A stretch of DNA of 64,000 nt from Nitrosomonadales bacterium (GTDB lineage: Bacteria; Pseudomonadota; Gammaproteobacteria; Burkholderiales; Gallionellaceae). Positions within the stretch are counted from its first letter, which is position 1. Every line of letters begins with the position of its first letter. The translations under genes were made by a program, and so were the position numbers. Below, one piece after another: positions 18,426-59,894 of the stretch. Where the stretch lies: positions 124,001 through 188,000 of the forward strand of contig JACOUM010000010.1 of the NCBI GenBank assembly GCA_016177795.1, in the 5' to 3' direction. Under the pieces are notes generated by a model, which was given only the letters and a program-made list of their open reading frames with translations, searched no databases and was not told the origin of the DNA.

Positions 18426-19766
18426 ATGAGCAAGCACATCCACATCCTCGGCATCTGCGGCACCTTCATGGGCGGCATCGCGGCCATCGCCAAGCAGGCG
18501 GGCTACCGCGTCACCGGTTGCGACGCCAACGTTTATCCGCCGATGAGCACGCAACTCGAGGCGCAGGGCATCGCACTGACCGAAGGCTTCGGCGTCGGGC
18601 AGCTCGAACTCAGACCGGATGTGTTCGTCATCGGCAACGTGGTGTCGCGCGGCAATCCGCTGATCGAGGAAATCCTCAACCGCAACCTGCCCTATGTCTC
18701 CGGCCCGCAGTGGCTTGCGCAGAACATCCTGCACGACCGCTGGGTGCTGGGCGTGGCGGGCACGCACGGCAAGACCACGACCTCTTCGATGCTCGCGTGG
18801 ATACTCGAATACGCGGGGCTAAACCCCGGCTTCCTGGTCGGCGGCGTGCCGCAGAATTTCGGCATCTCGGCGCGGCTGACCGATTCGGCCTTCTTCGTCA
18901 TCGAGGCTGACGAATATGACACCGCTTTCTTCGACAAGCGTTCCAAGTTCGTGCACTACCGCCCGCGTACCGCGATTCTCAACAACCTCGAATTCGACCA
19001 TGCCGACATCTTCCCCGATCTCGCCAGCATCGAGACGCAGTTCCACCATCTGGTGCGCACCGTTCCCGGCAACGGGCTGGTGGTGTGCAACGGGCGCGAG
19101 GAATCATTGCGGCGCGTGCTGCAGCGCGGCTGCTGGACACCGGTGGAGAGATTCGGCAATGACGAGGGGTGGGACATCGATGCCAACGACCGCGTGACAC
19201 TGAACGGTGTGCCTCAGGGCACGCTCGAATGGGACTTGCTCGGCGAGCACAACCGCATGAATGCGTTAGCCGCCTTGGCCGCGGCGCGCCATGCCGGTGT
19301 TCCGGTGGCGCAAGGCCTGGCAGCGCTGGCCGGATTCAGGAACGTGAAGCGCCGCATGGAAGTGCGCGGCACAGTCAACGGCATCACCGTGTATGACGAC
19401 TTCGCCCACCACCCCACCGCGATCGATACTACCATCGCCGGGCTGCGCCGCAAGGTCGGCAATTCACGTATCCTCGCGGTGCTGGAACCGCGCTCCAATA
19501 CCATGAAGCTGGGCGTGATGAAGGATGCGCTGCCCGGCAGCCTGAAGGACGCCGACCTGGTGTTCTGCTACGGCGCGAACCTCGGCTGGGATGCGCGCGA
19601 CGCGCTGGCACCGTTGGGAGGGAAAGTCGTGGTGAAGGACGACCTCAACGAACTGATCGGAGCTATCGTCGCCGCCGCGTGCTCAGGCGATCATGTGCTG
19701 GTGATGAGCAACGGCGGCTTCGGCGGAATACACGAGAAACTGCTGAAACGCCTGCAGATTCGCTGA
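18426..19766 (+). CDS. mpl: UDP-N-acetylmuramate:L-alanyl-gamma-D-glutamyl-meso-diaminopimelate ligase
   Basis: HIHILGICGTFMGGIAAIA, VAGTHGKTTTSSMLAW, Mur ligase family. Confidence 0.95.
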   Translation: MSKHIHILGICGTFMGGIAAIAKQAGYRVTGCDANVYPPMSTQLEAQGIALTEGFGVGQLELRPDVFVIGNVVSRGNPLIEEILNRNLPYVSGPQWLAQNILHDRWVLGVAGTHGKTTTSSMLAWILEYAGLNPGFLVGGVPQNFGISARLTDSAFFVIEADEYDTAFFDKRSKFVHYRPRTAILNNLEFDHADIFPDLASIETQFHHLVRTVPGNGLVVCNGREESLRRVLQRGCWTPVERFGNDEGWDIDANDRVTLNGVPQGTLEWDLLGEHNRMNALAALAAARHAGVPVAQGLAALAGFRNVKRRMEVRGTVNGITVYDDFAHHPTAIDTTIAGLRRKVGNSRILAVLEPRSNTMKLGVMKDALPGSLKDADLVFCYGANLGWDARDALAPLGGKVVVKDDLNELIGAIVAAACSGDHVLVMSNGGFGGIHEKLLKRLQIR

Positions 19767-19777
19767 AAATCTAGCTG

Positions 19778-19905
19778 TCCACGAAAAACACGAAAGGCAC
19801 GAAATTAAACAAGAAGTTGCATTGGCCCGGCAACTCACCCATGGAGTATTAATTCGCATCATGGAACCCTTCGAATTTTTTCGTGTTTTTCGTGCCTTTC
19901 GTGGA
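19778..19905. repeat. CACGAAA-family inverted-repeat element, copy A
   Basis: Left arm CCACGAAAAACACGAAAGGCACGAAA, right arm TTTCGTGTTTTTCGTGCCTTTCGTGG. Confidence 0.9.
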
Positions 19906-19929
19906 TAACTGCTTTTTCTAAAGACGGGT

Positions 19930-19953
19930 TGTCGGGATAAATCCCGACCTACG
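19930..19953 (-). repeat. GTAGG-type palindromic repeat overlapping the ntrC stop codon
   Basis: CGTAGGTCGGGATTTATCCCGACA on minus strand; stem GTCGGGAT/ATCCCGAC. Confidence 0.8.
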
Positions 19954-21349
19954 GTTCCGGATTTTCCAAGCCCAGCTCCTGGATCTTGCGTGTCAGGGTG
20001 TTGCGCCCGATGCCGAGCAGCGTCGCGGCTTCGATGCGGCGTCCGCCGGTGTGGTGCAAGGCCTGCAGGATCAGGGTACGCTCGAACTGTGCGGTGAGGT
20101 CGTCCATGATGCGTTCATCGCCGCGCTGCAAGGCCTGTGCCGCTTGTTGCGCCAGCGCCGCGCGCCAGTCGCCGTTGCTGACGGCATTCGCGCTGCTTTC
20201 TCTGCGCCACTCCGGTGGCAGATCGGCGATTTCCACTATCTGCGACGGTGTCATTACGGTCAGCCAGTGACACAGGTTTTCCAGTTGCCGCACGTTGCCG
20301 GGGAAATCCTGCGCGGCGAGATATTGCAGTGTCGCATCGCCGAATTGTTTTTGTTCGACGGCCAGTTCGCGCGCGCTTTTTTGCAGAAAGTATTTTGCCA
20401 GCAACGGAATGTCTTCGCGGCGTTCGCGCAGCGGCGGCAGGCGCAGGCGGATCACGTTCAGCCGATGGAACAGGTCTTCGCGGAATAGCCCCTGTTTGAC
20501 GCGCTCGTCGAGATTCTGGTGGGTGGCGGTAATGATGCGCACATTGGCCTTGATCGGCTGATGGCCGCCGACGCGATAGAAATTGCCGTCGGACAGCACG
20601 CGCAACAGGCGGGTCTGCAAATCGGCGGGCATGTCGCCGATCTCGTCGAGGAACAGCGTGCTACCTTCGGCCTGCTCGAAGCGGCCATGCCGCGTTGTCG
20701 CCGCGCCGGTGAATGCGCCGCGCTCGTGGCCGAACAGCTCCGATTCGAGCAGATCCTTGGGTATTGCGGCGGTATTGATCGCAATGAACGGTTTGCCGGC
20801 GCGCGGGCTGTGGCGGTGCAGCGCACGCGCCACCAGTTCCTTGCCGGTGCCGGATTCGCCGTTGATCAGCACGGTGGCATGCGATTGCGATAATCTGCCG
20901 ATGGCACGGAATACTTCCTGCATCGCGGGCGCCTGGCCGAGGATGTCGGCGGCGATTTCAATTTCCTGTGCATTGCCTGATTTGCGCTGGCTCTGCTCCA
21001 GCGCGCGCCGGACCAATTCGACTGCATGGTTAATATCGAACGGCTTGGGCAGATACTCGAAGGCGCCGCCCTGAAATGCGGAGACGGCGCTTTCCAGGTC
21101 GGAATAGGCAGTCATGATGATGACCGGAACAAGCGGATGGCGCTGGTGCAGCGCCTGCAAAAAATCCAGCCCCGAGCTGCCGGGCATGCGGATATCGCTG
21201 ACCACCACTTGCGGCACGTCATGGCCCAGCGCGCGCAGCGCATCGTCCGCCGTGGCGAAGCTCTTGAATGCGATATCTTCGCGTGTCAGCGCCTTTTCCA
21301 GCACCCAGCGGATGGAGCGGTCGTCATCGATAATCCAGACAGATTTCAT
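19949..21349 (-). CDS. ntrC: nitrogen regulation response regulator NtrC (sigma54 activator)
   Basis: Receiver domain, GESGTGKELVARALH, ESELFGHERGAFTGA, C-terminal HTH LGIGRNTLTRKIQELGL. Confidence 0.96.
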   Translation of the reverse strand: MKSVWIIDDDRSIRWVLEKALTREDIAFKSFATADDALRALGHDVPQVVVSDIRMPGSSGLDFLQALHQRHPLVPVIIMTAYSDLESAVSAFQGGAFEYLPKPFDINHAVELVRRALEQSQRKSGNAQEIEIAADILGQAPAMQEVFRAIGRLSQSHATVLINGESGTGKELVARALHRHSPRAGKPFIAINTAAIPKDLLESELFGHERGAFTGAATTRHGRFEQAEGSTLFLDEIGDMPADLQTRLLRVLSDGNFYRVGGHQPIKANVRIITATHQNLDERVKQGLFREDLFHRLNVIRLRLPPLRERREDIPLLAKYFLQKSARELAVEQKQFGDATLQYLAAQDFPGNVRQLENLCHWLTVMTPSQIVEIADLPPEWRRESSANAVSNGDWRAALAQQAAQALQRGDERIMDDLTAQFERTLILQALHHTGGRRIEAATLLGIGRNTLTRKIQELGLENPEP

Positions 21350-32083: not shown

Positions 32084-32112
32084 GGTCGGGTATAATTCCT
32101 AAAGTATGTTCG

Positions 32113-32205
32113 TCCACAAAAGGCACGAAAACCACGAAAGTTCGGGACAGTCTGTTCGCGCTGTGAACTTTATTTTTATTTTGTGACTTTCGTGTTTTTT
32201 GTGGG
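32113..32205. repeat. CACGAAA-family inverted-repeat element, copy B (apparently reversed orientation)
   Basis: TCCACAAAAGGCACGAAAACCACGAAAG ... TTTTGTGACTTTCGTGTTTTTTGTGG. Confidence 0.8.
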
Positions 32206-32248
32206 TTAATGTTTTTTCTTCGAAAATTCCTTAGGGTGGTCGAGTCTA

Positions 32249-33001: not shown

Positions 33002-33018
33002 CCAGGGAAAAATAGCTG

Positions 33019-33145
33019 TCCACGAAAGACACGAAAAGCACGAAATAAAACAAAAATTACGCTGACACTGTGAGTCACCTATTGGGCAATAATTCATGGC
33101 ATAGAGCTCTTTGAATTTTTCGTGTTTTTCGTGCTTTTCGTGGAC
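33019..33145. repeat. CACGAAA-family inverted-repeat element, copy C
   Basis: TCCACGAAAGACACGAAAAGCACGAAA ... TTTCGTGTTTTTCGTGCTTTTCGTGGA; core alignable to copy A. Confidence 0.9.
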
Positions 33146-55101: not shown

Positions 55102-56505
55102 ATGATCAAAAAGCTATTTATCAAAACCTTCGGCTGCCAGATGAACGAGTATGATTCGGACAAAATGGCGGATGTGCTGCGTGCCTGCGAGGGCATGGAA
55201 CGAACCGACAGGCCGGAAGAGGCAGACGTCATCCTGTTCAATACCTGTTCGATACGCGAGAAGGCCGAAGAGAAGGTGTTCTCCGACCTCGGCAGAGTGC
55301 GCCCGCTCAAACAGGCCAAACCGGGTTTGCTGATCGGTGTGGGTGGCTGTGTGGCCAGCCAGGAGGGTGAGGTGATCATGAAGCGTGCCCCCTATGTAGA
55401 TGTGGTATTCGGCCCGCAGACCCTGCATCGTCTGCCGCAGTTGTTGCAGGCGCGTCGCGACACCGGGCGGCCGCAGATGGACATCAGCTTTCCCGAGATC
55501 GAGAAGTTCGACCATCTGCCCGCACCTGTCCTGAATATTCCGGGACATTCGATTATGTCCGGGAGAGCCTTGCCGCAGGGCGAAGTGCCGCAGATTACCA
55601 GCGGTGCGGCCTTTGTATCCATCATGGAAGGGTGCAGCAAATACTGCACTTATTGCGTGGTGCCCTATACACGCGGCGAAGAAATATCGCGCCCGTTTGC
55701 CGACGTGATATGCGACATAGAAGAGCTGGTTGCGCAAGGCGTCAAGGAAATCACCCTGCTCGGGCAAAACGTGAATGCCTACTGCGGCGCGACCGAAGAC
55801 GGCGACACGCTGGATTTTGCTTTACTGCTGCAAGCCGTTGCCGCGCTGGATGGCGTAGAGCGGCTGCGTTACACGACCTCGCATCCCAAGGAAATGACGC
55901 AACGCCTGATCGACGTGTACGCGACCACACCCAAACTGGTCAGCCATTTGCACCTGCCGGTGCAGTCCGGCTCGGACCGCATCCTCGCCGCGATGAAGCG
56001 CAGTTACACCGCTTTGGAATACAAATCCATCGTGCGCCGGTTGCGTGCGGCGCGCCCCGATATTTGCATCACATCCGACTTCATTGTGGGTTTTCCCGGC
56101 GAGACCGAGCGCGATTTCGAGGCAACCATGAAACTGATCGACGATGTCGGCTTCGATGTCAGCTTCAGTTACCTGTACAGCCCGCGTCCAGGCACGCCTG
56201 CCGCCGAATTGAATGACGATACCCCGCCGGAAGAAAAATCGGCGCGGCTGGCGCGATTGCAGGCGCGTATCGACGAACTGGAGCAACAGGTCAACCAGTC
56301 CATGCTTGGCACGGTACAGCGCGTGCTGGTAGAAGGCGTGTCGAAGAAGGACGCGCTGGAGCTGGCCGGGCGTACCGATAATAACCGCGTGGTGAATTTC
56401 TGCGGTACTTCGGATCTGATCGGGCGTTTTGTCGAGGTGAAAATTGCCGGGGTGGTGAGGCACACGTTGCGCGGCGAGTTAATATTGAAGCTGGAAAAAT
56501 CATAG
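55102..56505 (+). CDS. miaB: tRNA-2-methylthio-N6-dimethylallyladenosine synthase
   Basis: [40 protein letters not shown]. Confidence 0.98.
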
Positions 56506-56617
56506 TCCACGAAAAACACAAAAGTCACAAAAAGGAAATTGCTACTCGAGACGAAAGCTAATGATTTTCCCAATATAATGCGCCGTTCGTTTTCGTGTGT
56601 TTCGTGCCTTTCGTGAA
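56506..56617. repeat. CACGAAA-family inverted-repeat element, copy D
   Basis: TCCACGAAAAACACAAAAGTCACAAAA ... TTTTCGTGTGTTTCGTGCCTTTCGTGAA; abuts miaB stop. Confidence 0.82.
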
Positions 56618-56645
56618 CCATTATTGATTTTCTTAAACGCATATC

Positions 56646-59681: not shown

Positions 59682-59770
59682 GGCGTGAGATGTTCCAAAG
59701 TAATCAGGGCGCGATTTAATCACAAATGCCGTATCGGAAGGAATCGGTTATTCTTGAAACCGTATTTGAA

Positions 59771-59838
59771 CCACGAAGGACACAGAGGGCCACGAAGAGA
59801 TTCATGGTTTTTCTTCGCGACCTTCGTGTCCTTCGTGG
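59771..59838. repeat. CACGAAG variant of the CACGAAA inverted-repeat family, copy E
   Basis: CCACGAAGGACACAGAGGGCCACGAAG ... CTTCGCGACCTTCGTGTCCTTCGTGG. Confidence 0.75.
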
Positions 59839-59894
59839 TGAGGTGTTTTTATAGGGGGTATTTTTTCCATGTGCTTCATGTTGCAATTCACCTG

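Follow-up and report, generated by a model that had tools for sequence, protein, structure and literature searches.

The CACGAAA repeats scattered through the genome of this Gallionellaceae bacterium are probably MITE-like and non-autonomous, and belong to a superfamily of minimal mobile elements. In full-length form, such an element would consist of a GxxExxY gene set between phased inverted arms and be moved by that gene. In the window, by which we mean the whole stretch of 64,000 nucleotides analyzed here, there are four inverted-repeat elements of the CACGAAA type (A to D) and one of a CACGAAG sister type (E). Elements A to D share the layout GTC-(CACGAAA NN)3 ... core ... (TTTCGTG NN)3-GAC. 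The features and their neighbors are the following:

19765..19776 (+): outer conserved flank of element A; a run of A followed by TT some 4-5 nt ahead of the GTC, according to the consensus of 220 arms.
19777..19906 (no strand): element A; arms 19780-19804 and 19879-19903, core of 74 bp, GTC-(CACGAAA NN)3 - core - (TTTCGTG NN)3-GAT; between mpl and ntrC, a convergent pair.
about 19907-19921: inverse of the outer flank of A, from the same 220-arm consensus.
32112..32206 (no strand): element B; arms 32115-32139 and 32179-32203, with CACAAAA variants; between a methyltransferase-28 gene and a pteridine reductase gene, a divergent pair.
33018..33145 (no strand): element C; arms 33021-33045 and 33118-33142; between the pteridine reductase gene and ttcA.
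56505..56618 (no strand): element D; arms 56508-56532 and 56591-56615; immediately after miaB and before a phoH-like gene.
59768..59841 (no strand): element E, of the sister arm type; CACGAAG/CACAGAG units at 59772-59797 and inverse units at 59813-59837; between a pseudouridine synthase gene and lnt.

All five elements are intergenic, as the first-pass annotation had stated, with D starting on the very last base of the preceding stop codon: its GTC begins on the G of the miaB TAG (window 56503-56507). In two cases the gene upstream takes its stop codon from the element in this manner (TAG, the G being the first base of GTC), namely at D and at L037:1969-1973. The same annotation counted five CACGAAA copies, which is correct for A to D; the fifth, E (placed there at 59771-59838), is built on CACGAAG and CACAGAG. 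Adjoining element A, at window 19920-19955, is an apparent GTAG-type REP-like palindrome, and palindromes of this type occur at the mpl-ntrC junction in relatives (L083-L099).

The dispersed family of 9-bp-phased heptamers is real. Searched at up to two mismatches, CACGAAANNCACGAAA has 20 matches in the window versus 0.41 expected, a number reached in none of 100 shuffles, and a pattern-free detector of three heptamers in 9-bp phase, run over the whole 64 kb, returns the arms of elements A to E and nothing else. Nor are the copies confined to the window: strict two-heptamer matches number 56 on the plus strand and 42 on the minus strand genome-wide, 98 together, versus 1 for the reversed control pattern, and delimitation by hand gives about 34 elements (32 CACGAAA, 2 CACGAAG), these genome counts being derived from pattern searches and fetched stretches. 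Chance low-complexity or tandem-repeat sequence, for which the short repeated units and one microsatellite-like expansion on contig 10 might speak, is scarcely credible against these counts, the inverted arrangement of the arms, and their fixed GTC/GAC ends. The expanded element (L050:2032-2235, contig 10:29031-29234) has a left arm grown to 22 units, in blocks of 15 and 7, with (CACGAAATT)n followed by (CACGAAAAT)n.

Over 78 elements whose arms each have three or more units, each heptamer column is 88-100% conserved; the heptamers earlier called invariant are therefore strongly conserved, with CACAAAA variants in B and D. Agreement of the 2-nt spacers between the arms of one element versus arms of different elements is 0.468 versus 0.497 and 0.314 versus 0.395 in the same 78 elements. 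No compensatory change between arms was found in these spacers, which pair no better than those of random arms, and the original remark that the spacers are not complementary between arms, based on the window, is borne out by the larger set. Since the spacers pair no better than random while the heptamers are conserved, it is the sequence itself that is kept, not a hairpin. Selection on the heptamer as the phased recognition array of a mobile element, which had been proposed from the window, is well supported by the spacers, by the dispersal of the copies, and by the full-length forms that carry a nuclease gene (see below). A set of 110 elements, drawn from this genus and public genomes, has arms terminating in (G/A)TC; ahead of it stand TT at -5/-4 and, at -15 to -9, a run of A. 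Across 220 arms the ends are GTC/GAC. A scan of the 110 elements revealed no target-site duplication and no consistent junction offset, and the missing duplications argue against ordinary DDE transposition. The cores are mostly unrelated to each other, 69 out of 89 being singletons; for inverted repeats around such cores it is meaningless to call copy B flipped relative to A and D, as had been proposed.

The majority of the elements separate genes read in the same direction, and typically follow the upstream stop by 7-35 nt. This location, together with the strong single-strand folding of four of the five window copies (z -4.3 to -6.5), would suit a host function, with regulatory hairpins (terminators, attenuators, or mRNA processing or stabilizing sites) put between operon genes by selection. 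We consider such a function improbable: the spacers do not co-vary and it is as sequence that the heptamers persist, there is no T-tract directly behind the stem, a terminator scan of the B-C region is empty at the arms, and the elements have no match in Rfam. Moreover, their presence within the genus is erratic, and the same junction in relatives holds different arm types. Comparison of orthologous loci for presence or absence, which had been recommended at the outset, showed that sites are often empty in relatives: L034e2 occupies 166 bp where most of ten relatives have 3 bp from stop to ATG, and at the junction of element C, which measures 178 bp in the window's own genome (G000), six of seven relatives have 5-23 bp. 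That the copies are dispersed and were gained after the split from relatives is well supported. Some other orthologous junctions are occupied in relatives by different repeats built to the same plan, either (CACAGAG NN)n or (CGCAGATTA)n, or by REP-like palindromes of the GTAG type. Strict copy number spans 0 to 51 matches within one genus, and the CACGAAA family is hosted by Gallionella, Sideroxydans, Methylobacter, Methylovulum, Sulfuriferula, and Deefgea; a handful of records are from Planctomycetes, Lentisphaeria, Opitutae, and Bacteroidetes. At L031:6389-6560 (element L031e3 of G000) and its orthologue L229 in G007, the outer flanks and the arms are common and the cores unrelated, as if the core had been replaced.

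GxxExxY was first suspected as the partner gene from flanks of this kind, and was then tested. In a test free of gene bias, loci were fetched by DNA pattern alone and open reading frames were sought within forward-reverse pairs of CACGAAA arrays: in 88 pairs the sole intact long frame is a GxxExxY gene (L127, Methylobacter), and a second one, cut by the end of its locus, lies 38 nt from a heptamer in L135. Within the genus, PF13366 genes are found between CACGAAA arrays in G007 and G011 and between CACAGAG arrays in G020; those of G025, G028, and G033 adjoin CGCAGATT arrays, and gene fragments in G021 and G013 adjoin CACGAAG arrays. The window's own genome, the assembly of which is 74% complete, has no PF13366 match. 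Phylum-wide, chained CRCxRRD arrays stand on both sides of 57 of 82 distinct GxxExxY genes versus 6 of 555 random intervals (Fisher 3e-54), and on one side only of 16 further genes of the 82. Inverted repeats scoring at least 14 surround 56 of 74 GxxExxY genes versus 1 of 49 ordinary genes, this single one being the gene between elements B and C. An equal arrangement, between host genes, is seen in the Bacteroidota (Bacteroides finegoldii and Bernardetia plasmids); a search of viral contigs with two query proteins gave no relatives.

The full-length element has one gene of about 125 aa, with arms close by or in some cases overlapping it, each of 2-4 heptamers in 9-bp phase. In L302, L310, L312, L325, L345, and L354 the GxxExxY frame starts inside or before the left arm, and the arm may be translated. 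Gene-bearing elements have ends in common with gene-less ones (L127, L262, L266, L359, L360, and others), and in L141, from Methylobacter, a short core is homologous to part of the GxxExxY gene, as expected for a deletion derivative. The idea that most short cores derive from this gene was rejected, L141 being the one clear case.

The element gene belongs to TIGR04256/PF13366 (PDDEXK_3), with 140.4 bits against a curated cut-off of 35 (E about 1e-41). Over 27 proteins, four residues are invariant (E31, D71, K83, Q95) and two more, E81 and Y99, are conserved in at least 90%, and the active-site pattern E...D...E81-x-K83 (...QxxxY) is complete; we take it to be that of a PD-(D/E)XK nuclease with a RecB/Cas4-type QxxxY. 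Outside TIGR04256/PF13366, the profile library yields weak matches, to Cas4 (E 1e-3) and to T7 endonuclease I (E about 0.1). The catalytic pattern is held in common with Cas4/RecB-type nucleases and T7 endonuclease I, the profile similarity to them being weak and common ancestry not established, and GxxExxY differs from both in being a stand-alone protein of about 125 aa within a repeat element.

The arm heptamers vary around CRCRRAD, i.e. C-R-C-R-R-A-(A/G/T), and do so along the protein lineages. On a protein tree built from 104 columns the modal arm heptamer requires 27 changes versus a shuffled mean of 50 (minimum 45), and heptamer position 7 only 3 changes versus a shuffled mean of 29.7 (minimum 24). 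Different GxxExxY clades within one genome retain their own arm types (G089, G204, G485, and G487), so that host composition is not the cause. Co-inheritance of gene and arms, that is linkage alone, could give the tree pattern without recognition. Among 36 genomes chosen solely for their CACGAAA arrays, GxxExxY is present in 15, versus 41 of 391 in the phylum (p=7e-6), and was not detected in the other 21. Two of the three arm types are most numerous where GxxExxY carries those arms: CACAGAG has 50 copies in G020, the sole carrier with such arms, and 17 in the next-highest genome, and CACGAAA has 51 and 31 strict matches in two carriers, which rank first, versus a median of 1 elsewhere, the window's own genome being left out. 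For the third type, CGCAGATT, the excess in carriers is not significant (p=0.11). G017, a 100% complete genome, has 22 CGCAGATT and 17 CACAGAG matches, and GxxExxY was not found in it.

It is rather unlikely that GxxExxY, as a nuclease gene of homing or accessory type, inserts into existing arrays, the arrays themselves spreading otherwise, for instance by hairpin-primed copying or slippage of host enzymes. Gene-less copies do outnumber gene-bearing ones, the gene is missing from many genomes, one tandem array has expanded to 22 units, L031e3 kept its arms while its core was replaced between G000 and G007, and GxxExxY is held at one junction, trpD-trpC; such an origin would nevertheless leave aside the tight coupling of arm type and protein clade, across phyla and inside single genomes, and the peaks of copy number that accompany GxxExxY with matching arms for two of the three types. 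The trpD-trpC junction, named by eye from the flanking proteins, holds GxxExxY in 11 loci (L302, L304-L306, L309, L312, L316, L320-L322, and L337), so that some copies evidently reside at one junction for long instead of hopping. The heptamers of these loci drift (CGCAGAG, CACAGAG, CGCAAAG, CGCGAAG) in both arms together, as if homogenized within the element.

For a superfamily of minimal mobile elements driven by their own nuclease, we infer from the sequence comparisons that GxxExxY reads and cuts the arms. The protein would bind the phased heptamers of both arms and cut either at the arms or at an extruded hairpin; gene-bearing elements would thereby move, gene-less copies with matching arms would move in trans, and host repair would complete the movement. 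Insertions would be tolerated chiefly between the genes of operons. CACGAAA would then be the arm type of one protein clade, of which the window's own genome would retain about 32 copies without a detected gene.

The nearest parallel in way of life is the REP/REPIN (BIME) repeats with their RAYT (TnpA-REP, Y1/HUH), which are likewise dispersed intergenic palindromes of high copy number, with a related gene between the same repeats and a patchy distribution within a genus. The protein found in the elements differs from the REP-type (Y1) transposase that the first-pass annotation had suggested looking for. A Y1 (HUH) transposase could in principle move the repeats as REP-like sites, with GxxExxY as a passenger, given this shared life style, in which palindromes are dispersed between genes and gene-less copies accompany rare gene-bearing ones, and given the GTAG-type REP-like palindromes at identical junctions in the same genus. 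We give this little credence: REP palindromes have GTAG at their foot, whereas the arms of the CACGAAA elements are tandem phased heptamers without it; the RAYT gene is a Y1 gene, whereas no Y1 frame lies within the 88 CACGAAA pairs, in which GxxExxY is the sole intact long one; and the arm type tracks the GxxExxY tree, a PD-(D/E)XK nuclease being linked with its arms in several phyla. We conclude that the elements live in the manner of REP/RAYT with an unrelated enzyme, and are probably not members of that family. Several features by which MITEs are recognized (dispersed gene-less inverted repeats, empty orthologous sites, and ends common to a gene-bearing element) are present, and the Correia/NEMIS elements are similar in being short, gene-less, intergenic inverted repeats of about 60-180 bp with inferred movement in trans. 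In contrast to these, our elements show no target-site duplication, have unrelated cores and phased-heptamer ends, and are linked to an enzyme that is not a DDE transposase.

On balance, we lean towards a new class of minimal element, in which a stand-alone GxxExxY nuclease would read CRCRRAD arrays with a specificity that diverges together with them, driving the gene and swarms of gene-less copies across many phyla, with a parallel 7-bp class that has PF05635; there is a fair chance that the GxxExxY elements deserve a class of their own. The link between GxxExxY and the repeats was found nowhere in the literature searched, where GxxExxY is mentioned in passing only and PF13366 in another context, no paper being found that connects the family with mobility or with arms of this kind. 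Searches by motif strings gave no account of a CACGAAA repeat family, the match in PMC3090145 being a primer sequence. GxxExxY, annotated in many bacteria with no role found in that literature, thereby gains a testable one, and a large unnamed set of dispersed repeats (CACGAAA, CACAGAG, CGCAGATT, CACGAAG, and others) would be explained. If true, the REP/RAYT way of life would have been reached a second time, independently and with a different nuclease, and the system would provide a natural series of protein-DNA specificities, in which four variable heptamer positions are matched to protein clades; it also would bear on the remodelling of operon junctions.

The PF05635 elements, i.e. the 23S rRNA IVS or four-helix-bundle (S23) genes known from the Coxiella IVS, have been described as selfish (PMC4990558). 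They resemble the GxxExxY elements in having one tiny gene between inverted arms of short tandem units, and differ in their unrelated protein and in arms of 7-bp phase (TTAGTCG, AGGATTG, GAAGGGG, etc.) instead of 9-bp CRCRRAD. PF05635 genes were considered as the partner of the 9-bp arms and rejected, a 9-bp array being present at none of 30 loci. These loci (L272-L301, of which L290 is in the window's own genome at contig 5:203023-203334) have inverted arms with 7-bp-phase units such as TTAGTCG, AGGATTG, GGATTCA, GAAGGGG, and GTGAAAC, and their arms match themselves at lag 7 with a value of 0.50 versus 0.25-0.28 at other lags.
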